Positions 1 through 11,146 of a DNA stretch of 51,277 bases are shown one piece after another (position 1 is the stretch's first letter; every line of letters begins with the position of its first letter). The notes below the pieces were generated by a model that was not told the DNA's origin, searched no databases, and saw only the letters and a list, made by a program, of their open reading frames with translations. Made by a program: the position numbers and the translations under genes. Source of the stretch: Caldifarciminota bacterium (GTDB taxonomy: Bacteria > Hydrothermota > Hydrothermia > Hydrothermales > JAJRUZ01); assembly GCA_024277525.1 (NCBI GenBank), contig JAJRUZ010000039.1, positions 1 to 51,277 of the forward strand, written 5' to 3'.

Positions 1-204
1 AAAGTAAAAAGTCAAAAGTTAAAAGTGAATTTCAGGAATCTTGTAGCCTCGGTATCCTTACCGCGAAATAAAAATTATAGGATTTATGGTATAACGGGAA
101 GAATAATCGCGACTCGGAAGTCGCTCCTGCAGGGAAAATTGAAAAAAGGAATATATTTTATAAAAACAGATAAAAAAACATTTAAGATAATAAAAATAAA
201 ATGA
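1..204 (+). CDS. C-terminal end of a secreted protein with a sorting-type domain (partial)
   Basis: Frame 1 is open from the first base to the TGA at 202-204, giving 67 residues whose gene starts before the window. The end contains IYGITGRII and then GKLKKGIYFIKT, which is the pattern of the C-terminal sorting domain (T9SS type A or FlgD-like fold) also seen at the end of the next gene. Oddly, two REP-like palindromes (43-66 and 107-130) lie inside the frame and code for NLVASVSLPR and ATRKSLLQ. The second falls in the loop between the GR-II strand and the G-LKKGIY strand, where sorting domains vary. The open frame plus the motif order support a real coding end; function of the missing body is unknown. 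Confidence 0.6.
   Translation, partial: KVKSQKLKVNFRNLVASVSLPRNKNYRIYGITGRIIATRKSLLQGKLKKGIYFIKTDKKTFKIIKIK
43..66 (+). repeat. REP-like palindrome with GTAG head, copy 1
   Basis: GTAG is followed by a hairpin with arms CGGTA and TACCG and then GCGA. Head plus hairpin is the layout of REP elements moved by RAYT (TnpA-REP) transposases. It lies inverted relative to the copy at 107-130, so the pair has the layout of a REPIN. Confidence 0.5.
107..130 (-). repeat. REP-like palindrome, copy 2 (inverted)
   Basis: Read on the minus strand it is GCAG, GAGCGACTT, CCG, AGTCGCGA. The arms GCGACT and AGTCGC pair perfectly. It shares the head, GAGCG and CGCGA parts with the copy at 11123-11146, showing a genome family rather than a chance hairpin. 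Confidence 0.6.
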
Positions 205-312: not shown

Positions 313-2616
313 ATGTGGTATAAAATTATAGTCTTGTTTATTATAGCAAAGGTATCAACGGCGGGTGAATTTTTTAAAATTGCACCTGCAAAAAGACTGA
401 CGGGTAAAGGAGAAGTAATTCCACTTCATGTTGAGAGAATAAGGGTTCAGAAATCATGGGGAAATCCTGTTATTCAAAAATGGGGAACAGGGCTTGGTGC
501 AGCAGCAGTTCTTGGGCCCGCAGATACTCCTTTAATTGATTGGTGGACAGAACTCGGGTGGACAGGTGATATTATATTCGGGATCTGGAATATTTATGAT
601 CCTTCCGAATTTGCTTATGTATTAGGAGGAATAGACCCCGGAGATACATTTGTTTCCTATTTTCAACCACCGGTAGCATGCACAATTGTGGCTTTCGGTA
701 TTTATTATTTCAATGATGAAGCTGACCCTTCGGCAAATTTGACTTATTTTGCCTCCTGGACAAGGGAAGGAGTTGCACCTGAGTCCCTCTGGAGTTATGG
801 CAGAGGAACTTATCCAGATACCGAGGCTTCGGGTTTAGGTCGGTACATTGATTATCACTATGGATATGATTATCCAGGTCCTGTGCCTTTTGATAAAAAT
901 AACTGGATTACCGCCCCTACAACAATTTCCGTTCCTTACGATACTCTGAATATTCAATATACCGTATTTTATCCTGATACTGTTATAGATGATTCATTGG
1001 CAGATGAATTCTGGGTTGGTTGGGTGCCTTTGACTGCTGGAGCATCAAATGCAATGCCATGGGTAATTATTACTTCAAATTATGGAACAGGGAACTGGAA
1101 GTGCTGGATTTATCAGCAAGACCTTTCAGGATTCGGAATAAGCCCGGGCTGGTACAATCAATGGCACGGATACTGGATGGACGCATTTGTATGGGTATAT
1201 GAGGACCCTCCTCCTTCAATAATATGGGTTGAGGAGTTGCCGTGGACTTTCTCAACAGGACCTTTCAAAATAAAAATGTATGCAAAGGACATTTTGGGAA
1301 TTCCCTCTGCAAATCAAAGTATCAAAGCATGCACCCTTGAAGTATATGCGATTCCGAGTTCACCAACACCTCAATATATTGAAGGTGTCCCTCTCTCGGG
1401 TGACTCTACAGCTACAGCAGGTCTATGGGAATTTACATTCGGAAATTTTGCCCCCGGCGATACGGTATATTACAGAATTTATTCTGTGTATGATTATTCA
1501 GGTGGAGTCACAAGTGAAGATTCATACCACAAATTTGTGATACTTGAATATAATCCTGATGTTCAATTCCTTTTTGTAGATGAAGACCAGGATGCGTGGG
1601 CTCAATATGCCTATGATATTTTTAATGAACTCGTTGATTATACCGACACTGTTGCCGACGGAACCCCATCTGCATTTTTCTGGGATACAAAAACAATGGG
1701 GTACCTTGATTCGTCCGTTCTTGATGTAAATAAATTTAAAGCAGTTTTCTGGACCGCTTTGGAAGGAGATACTTTTGCTTTCGATACCGTTAATATAAAA
1801 AATTACCTTAATTCAGGGGGCAATCTGTTTGTTTCTTCACAAGATTTCGTTTGCGGAGGATTTGGTATCGGAGATTATACAACGGAAACTTCTATAAAAA
1901 CAGATTTTCCCGGGCATTTTCTTCACACTTATATGAAAATGGATAGGGTCTTGGATGATGCCGGAGGGTTCCCTCCGGGTGCCGGAGTATGGATTTACGG
2001 CTTTCCCGGAGACCCTATTTCTGACCCGCTTCCTACATATTGGATGCGGATGGATTCGTTTTTTTACTCAGGTTATTCAGGTTATGTATTTCCTGATGAC
2101 CTTGGAAATGCAGTTTATGACACAGTATTTCCTTGCTGGTTTTATGGAAAGGTGACCGAAAGGGAATCCGGAACACCTGCGGGTTACTGGTATGACGGAA
2201 CAAATTACGGAGAAGCTTATAAATTGGTATTTTTTTATTTCAACTACCAGTATTTGGATTCCCTTCAAGTAAAAGAACTTACAAAGAGAATCCTTGATTT
2301 CTTCGGATATGAGGTGGTTTCTGTGTCCGAAACACCGAAAATTAAACCCTCCAAAATGAAACTCTCGCTCAAAGCACCTTCAATTGCAGGGCTCGGGAAT
2401 ATTTTTATCTATTACACAATTCCTGAACCGGGAAATGTTAAAATTTCCCTTTTTGATGCATCCGGAAGATTAATAAAAAATCTGTTTAAAGGAAGAAAAA
2501 AAGAGGGTGCCTATACCATTTCCTTCGGTTCAAAAGGACTTAAATCCGGCACATATTTCATAAAGATTGAATGTAAAGGTAAATCAGAAAGTCAGAAACT
2601 GATATTGATAAGGTAA
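313..2616 (+). CDS. Large secreted protein with C-terminal sorting-type domain
   Basis: A 767-residue protein with a signal peptide (about residues 1-18, ending VSTA-GE) and an AGGAGG site 6 bases before the ATG. The body is rich in Trp, Tyr, Gly, Asp and Pro with no catalytic motif I can name; it reads like a beta-rich extracellular protein. The middle (about 415-520) resembles a Rossmann-like segment (VQFLFVDEDQDAWAQ, LNSGGNLFVSSQDF) of the kind seen in surface peptidase-like proteins of these lineages. The last 75 residues have the sorting fold: ISLFDASGRLIKNL, LKSGTYFIKI and a basic tail. It is probably exported and anchored or released at the surface. The same domain type ends the preceding gene. 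Confidence 0.85.
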   Translation: MWYKIIVLFIIAKVSTAGEFFKIAPAKRLTGKGEVIPLHVERIRVQKSWGNPVIQKWGTGLGAAAVLGPADTPLIDWWTELGWTGDIIFGIWNIYDPSEFAYVLGGIDPGDTFVSYFQPPVACTIVAFGIYYFNDEADPSANLTYFASWTREGVAPESLWSYGRGTYPDTEASGLGRYIDYHYGYDYPGPVPFDKNNWITAPTTISVPYDTLNIQYTVFYPDTVIDDSLADEFWVGWVPLTAGASNAMPWVIITSNYGTGNWKCWIYQQDLSGFGISPGWYNQWHGYWMDAFVWVYEDPPPSIIWVEELPWTFSTGPFKIKMYAKDILGIPSANQSIKACTLEVYAIPSSPTPQYIEGVPLSGDSTATAGLWEFTFGNFAPGDTVYYRIYSVYDYSGGVTSEDSYHKFVILEYNPDVQFLFVDEDQDAWAQYAYDIFNELVDYTDTVADGTPSAFFWDTKTMGYLDSSVLDVNKFKAVFWTALEGDTFAFDTVNIKNYLNSGGNLFVSSQDFVCGGFGIGDYTTETSIKTDFPGHFLHTYMKMDRVLDDAGGFPPGAGVWIYGFPGDPISDPLPTYWMRMDSFFYSGYSGYVFPDDLGNAVYDTVFPCWFYGKVTERESGTPAGYWYDGTNYGEAYKLVFFYFNYQYLDSLQVKELTKRILDFFGYEVVSVSETPKIKPSKMKLSLKAPSIAGLGNIFIYYTIPEPGNVKISLFDASGRLIKNLFKGRKKEGAYTISFGSKGLKSGTYFIKIECKGKSESQKLILIR

Positions 2617-11122: not shown

Positions 11123-11146
11123 TCGCGGTTGGGAAACCGCTCCTAC
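11123..11146 (-). repeat. REP-like element with GTAG head
   Basis: On the minus strand it reads GTAG, GAGCGGTTT, CCC, AACCGCGA; arms GCGGTT and AACCGC pair perfectly. The head and hairpin match the layout of REP elements and the copy at 107-130. Confidence 0.65.

Follow-up and report, generated by a model that had tools for sequence, protein, structure and literature searches.

The Sorting-Domain Coding End

The window, that is, the whole analysed stretch of 51,277 nt, is contig C29 from its first base in a draft genome of 2.34 Mb (102 contigs, 96.47% complete). Because it opens at base 1 of this contig, the 5' part of its first gene is missing. In frame 1, positions 1–201 of the forward strand form 67 open codons followed by TGA at 202–204, and both other forward frames contain stops. 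The translation reached 23.8 bits against the profile TIGR04183 (T9SS type A sorting domain), barely exceeding the cut-off of 23, and 18.3 bits against Pfam Por_Secre_tail, which is under the cut-off of 27. By the profile match above its cut-off, positions 1–204 are the C-terminal coding end of a gene with a T9SS type A sorting domain, whose protein would be a T9SS cargo. This stretch has 18 DNA matches in its own genome, itself included, the closest other full copy being C102:206–404 (89%; 33.1 bits against TIGR04183), and 79 sorting-domain matches of the TIGR04183 type were found genome-wide at E up to 0.1. The gene that follows in the window (313–2616) also has a T9SS sorting domain at its end, free of REPs and with 36.2 bits against TIGR04183.

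The first-pass annotation had pointed to two REP-like elements in opposite orientation at 43–131, read in frame within a sorting-domain coding end, and its bounds were right to one base: REP1 occupies 43–66 of the forward strand (3 mismatches to the family consensus) and codes for VASVSLPR, while REP2 occupies 107–130 of the reverse strand (1 mismatch) and is read on the forward strand as (I)ATRKSLLQ, the 67 codons being open through both. Between them lies the native strand of the sorting domain, NKNYRIYGITGRI (67–106, forward), the first 6 bases of which (67–72) are an extra peculiar to the C29 copy in the alignment of five copies. Behind REP2 the native domain end GKLKKGIYFIKTDKKTFKIIKIK and the stop follow at 131–204 of the forward strand, as indicated by the open frame, the alignment of copies, and a match reaching the end of the profile. 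A third REP of the same family lies at 11123–11146 of the reverse strand with 0 mismatches, and the longest open frame across it has 98 aa, with no long gene. A structure model of the window domain, made from the single sequence, has a mean pLDDT of 60.7 and a short helix at residues 39–44 over the REP2 part, and is too weak to support the surface loop that the first-pass annotation had proposed.

The first 26 bases of the window (1–26, forward) belong to a separate dispersed repeat, an octamer of the AAAAGTCA type coding for KVKSQKLKV. Dispersed matches lie at C54:362–525, C40:19527, and C69:1684. The octamer also stands in the linker of the C102 copy and at the corresponding place in L064, the homologue in genome G004; homologous proteins of two families share it at a matching linker. 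The linker of the C55 copy contains a CCCGATTC-like repeat.

The REP Family in the Genome

The consensus GTAGGAGCGRYNTCCNNRYCGCGA was found at 73 sites of the genome at up to 3 mismatches, while a reversed-pattern control gave 0 sites, so the family that the first-pass annotation had proposed to look for does exist. Among these sites all 6 stem pairs are formed in 50, 5 in 18, and 4 in 5, and alternative stems (GCGGTT, GCGATT, GCGGTA, GCGACT, and GCCGTA) occur with complementary partners. The 89-base fold that spans both REPs of the window is not strong (z = −1.39); therefore the evidence for the REPs rests on the family and not on the joint fold. Neighbouring sites form 21 pairs, and in 7 of them the two REPs are inverted with their GTAG heads on the outer sides. 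With at most 1 mismatch allowed, the consensus was present in 1 of 41 genomes, its own, and was absent from the 40 relatives searched, among which there is no genome of the same genus.

GTAG REPs have been described as having a GTAG head, an unpaired dinucleotide, a short loop, and a stem of mostly 6–9 bp that varies between sub-families by compensatory changes, with many families numbering 20–100 units and some units located inside ORFs of known proteins (Di Nocera, De Gregorio, and Rocco 2013, PMC3733652). The present consensus has the GTAG head and an unpaired GA dinucleotide before the stem, and with its compensated 6-bp stem, short loop, and copy number the family matches the GTAG-1 type of that study. 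Another hairpin family headed by GTAG, GTAGCGGTGCGATTTATCGCAC, is frequently a neighbour of the first one (L003, L004, L005, L031, L048, L126, and L143).

A RAYT gene, also suggested by the first-pass annotation as a search target, did not emerge: the profile PF01797 of RAYT-type (Y1) transposases had 0 matches in this genome of 96.47% completeness on 102 contigs, and the same profile matched in 5 of 14 control genomes. Mobilisation of the REPs by a RAYT-like transposase, none of which was found in the assembly, may nevertheless be supposed.

REPs Translated in Other Genes

All 73 sites were placed in their longest open frame, and the long frames were read. By this reading at least 17 of the 73 are in frame in genes whose homology extends to either side of the REP, or in copies of these genes, and they fall into five gene families: sorting domains (C29 and C67 with two each, C102, C8, and C55 with one each), PQQ-propeller genes (three in C7, two in C22), a LutB-like gene (three in C69), KdsB (one in C21), and a TauE-like gene (one in C47). 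At C29:107 and C8:41 the longest frame is on the opposite strand, yet the domain frame is open through both. The first-pass statement that REPs normally lie outside genes is accordingly only partly true, the more so as intragenic GTAG REPs are described in PMC3733652. Two further in-frame cases are probable, one in a long esterase-like ORF (C7:17937) and one in the tail region of a protein resembling retropepsins (C32:4657). Four REPs are located in gene fragments (C83, C84 twice, and C67:443). Among the remaining 50 sites, some are found immediately ahead of a probable start codon (C32:6290, C10:58729, and C56:39242), and C92:5641 could lie in a signal peptide. In the coding REPs the GTAG strand is read in two phases, and the opposite strand is read as well; as far as alignments show, those that survive are located in loops or linkers.

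Copies and Empty Sites

Both REPs are present in the sorting domains at C29, C102:206–404 (where REP1 begins with GCAG), and C67:4041–4223. The copy at C8:8–139, on a contig edge, keeps REP2 together with a truncated end of REP1, and C55:2409–2539 has both REPs in a diverged state, with broken stems and a frame that is still open. The outer pair of REP1 is also broken in the window and C67 copies. C67:368–469 is a sorting-domain fragment that starts at REP2 behind another gene. C102 and C55 are FG-GAP paralogues of one another (65% identical), the FG-GAP matches of C102 being weak and under the cut-off. Compared by codon position, the C102 copy differs from that of C29 at 4, 3, and 9 places, a weak bias.

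A REP-free paralogue on contig C67 (2034–3350) allows an empty-site comparison. Once the 24 bases that make up REP2 are deleted from C102, an 8-residue gap against this paralogue closes and the score rises from 82 to 91; a further 2-residue gap downstream is present with or without REP2. By this comparison REP2 is an exact insertion of 8 codons. The earlier proposal that the REPs had entered the coding end is therefore supported for REP2 (ATRKSLLQ); REP1 (VASVSLPR) is a candidate insertion only, being situated at the end of a linker that could not be aligned with homologues.

Outside the sorting domain an empty site is seen for the PQQ gene of C7, where the siblings G001 and G003 lack precisely VGAVSEPR and a target duplication is not apparent; deletion of these residues closes the gap against G001 and raises the score from 75 to 84, with the same spacing in G003, and this REP is likewise an insertion of exactly 24 bases. 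Two other REPs of this gene correspond to about 6 (PQQ-B) and 18 (PQQ-C) additional residues counted by eye, the latter including a CCCGAATC-type repeat beside the REP. The LutB-like gene has three REPs and a 15-base relic in a linker that is, by eye, 14 residues shorter in G001 and G003; the protein had no match among solved structures. The C22 PQQ copy has a REP shortened by 9 bases with the frame maintained, and another relic of this kind lies in the C69 gene.

KdsB, in which the REP codes for VGAISKSR, appeared as a clean insertion against solved structures and against 22 of 25 relatives, which are 7 or 8 residues shorter at the REP, and was rejected as such, since three genomes of the same family are equally long without a REP. 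Insertion is therefore not universal across the sites, and the KdsB alignment would be compatible with a replacement of sequence, a parallel insertion, or a REP that entered long ago and has decayed.

In the TauE-like protein the central loop of both the own genome (L234) and G004 (L235; 75% identical) contains another palindromic repeat, NPPxPLHQG, whose palindrome CCCCTTCACCAAGGGG codes for PLHQG and which is absent in G003 of the same family; in the own genome the REP follows behind it. This may point to transfer and to a single loop having been hit more than once.

Interpretation

Taken together, the REPs are, with high probability, tolerated, translated, and frame-neutral 24-base insertions in loops or linkers, which later decay like ordinary coding sequence. 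Single REPs of the GTAG-1 type would each have entered the 3' coding end of one cargo gene of the T9SS, coding for an FG-GAP protein in the copies with a visible body, before copying spread this end to five or more places. The unit of 24 bases is a multiple of three, and its consensus is open in 5 of 6 frames and closed only where the GTAG head reads TAG; landing without target duplication in a loop or linker, it would add 8 residues and keep the frame. The length, the five open frames, and the lack of duplication together make the REP frame-neutral. The additional residues would be tolerated by the protein, and the hairpin would no longer be maintained, with the REP decaying as coding DNA. 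The stages of decay argue for this: the broken stems of C55 with an open frame, the in-frame loss in C22, and the relic in C69. On the other side stand the missing PF01797 match, the unaligned REP1, the KdsB segments of equal length, the PQQ-B, PQQ-C, and LutB-like differences of not exactly 8 residues, the weak codon-position bias between copies, and the location of the window copy at a contig edge. The REP-bearing proteins are presumably made and working.

A REPIN consists of two inverted REPs with a spacer that move as one unit, and the window pair, in opposite orientation with GTAG outside and 40 bases apart, resembles it, as do the 7 similarly oriented neighbouring pairs of the genome. 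The first-pass annotation had described an inverted REP pair that seemed to have entered the coding end. The spacer, however, codes for a strand native to the sorting domain (YRIYGITGR in the window and YKIYNITGR, against YKIFNISGQ in the REP-free paralogue), and the extra sequence at REP2 is its 24 bases only; the candidate of a single unit was thereby ruled out, and the entry of a REPIN with its own spacer is very improbable. The pair is instead two single REPs flanking a native strand, which, together with the negative Y1 transposase search of the genome, distinguishes it from REPINs with RAYT.

Quite unlikely is the explanation that the REPs reside in decaying gene remnants whose open frames are left over from recent gene death. 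The stops in the C83 and C84 PQQ fragments, the fragment C67:368–469, and the window gene without a visible start would agree with it, but the C22 PQQ copy keeps an open frame of at least 625 codons and C55 one of 443 codons through diverged REPs, and KdsB reaches 199.6 bits against TIGR00466, above the cut-off, with no second match of this kind at E up to 1e-20 in the genome. That 3'-end REPs are conserved for a role at the level of RNA or DNA (as mRNA stabiliser, terminator, or gyrase site), their coding being incidental, would suit a pair within 162 bases of the stop codon and the frequent position of REPs near gene 3' ends elsewhere (PMC3733652); nevertheless it is distinctly improbable in view of the decayed stems of C55, the broken outer pair of REP1, and the REPs deep within PQQ, KdsB, and TauE genes. 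An assembly artefact, with repeats misjoined at a contig edge, is scarcely credible: the window does start inside a repeat in which other contigs also start or end, but the same arrangement is internal to C102, with the gene body upstream, and to C55.

The REPs of the sorting-domain ends might also serve as recombination joints by which tails are moved or trimmed between T9SS cargo genes, a reading that seems unlikely, with hints in the start of C67:368–469 at REP2, in the PQQ fragments of C83 and C84, which switch after a REP, and in the sorting-domain matches near contig ends. If it were true, the REP family would help to spread the export tag. In the broken PQQ fragments (C83:17772–17795 and C84:4721–4744) the same downstream sequence, AATAGTTT.TTCAGAAATTCGG, directly follows different REPs of the gene, as if recombination had occurred at the REPs.

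Relation to Known Elements and Significance

Translated intragenic hairpin repeats are a known phenomenon, of which the tolerated REP insertions described here are a further, well-documented example with good empty-site evidence. As with the GTAG-1 REPs of PMC3733652, there are a GTAG head, an unpaired dinucleotide, a short stem-loop, a conserved tail, single and dimeric units, and some intragenic ones; unlike in that account, as far as its excerpts go, exact 24-base insertions are identified here by empty-site comparison, and the sorting-domain, KdsB, TauE, LutB-like, and PQQ genes are unnamed there. Rickettsia palindromic elements (RPEs), whose presence in coding frames has been known for longer than that of intragenic GTAG REPs, are likewise palindromic mobile repeats translated in frame in unrelated conserved genes and apparently tolerated (PMC2229807, PMC10969869). 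By published lengths alone they are larger, with 105–146 bp, or about 150 bp according to the 2024 review, against 24 bp here, and they carry their own ORF. An open-access search returned no relevant literature linking REPs with sorting domains, and for REPINs, RAYTs, and intragenic REPs from 2013 onward only PMC3733652 seemed relevant.

The repeats in sorting-domain ends are also a warning, since they break assemblies. A hand count covering only contigs of established length placed no fewer than 14 of the 79 matches to the sorting domain 300 bases or less from where a contig ends, against 2.1 expected (P(13 or more) 1.4e-7), and the assembly was thus broken at shared sorting-domain ends. C76 and C32 both open with a sorting-domain tail, equal in score and in position (29–121), and these coding ends behave as assembly-breaking repeats.

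In summary, the empty sites indicate that coding DNA can take up a 24-bp REP exactly, in frame, and without target duplication, and the combination of several gene families, stages of decay, and REP-free orthologues makes the fate of translated REPs testable.
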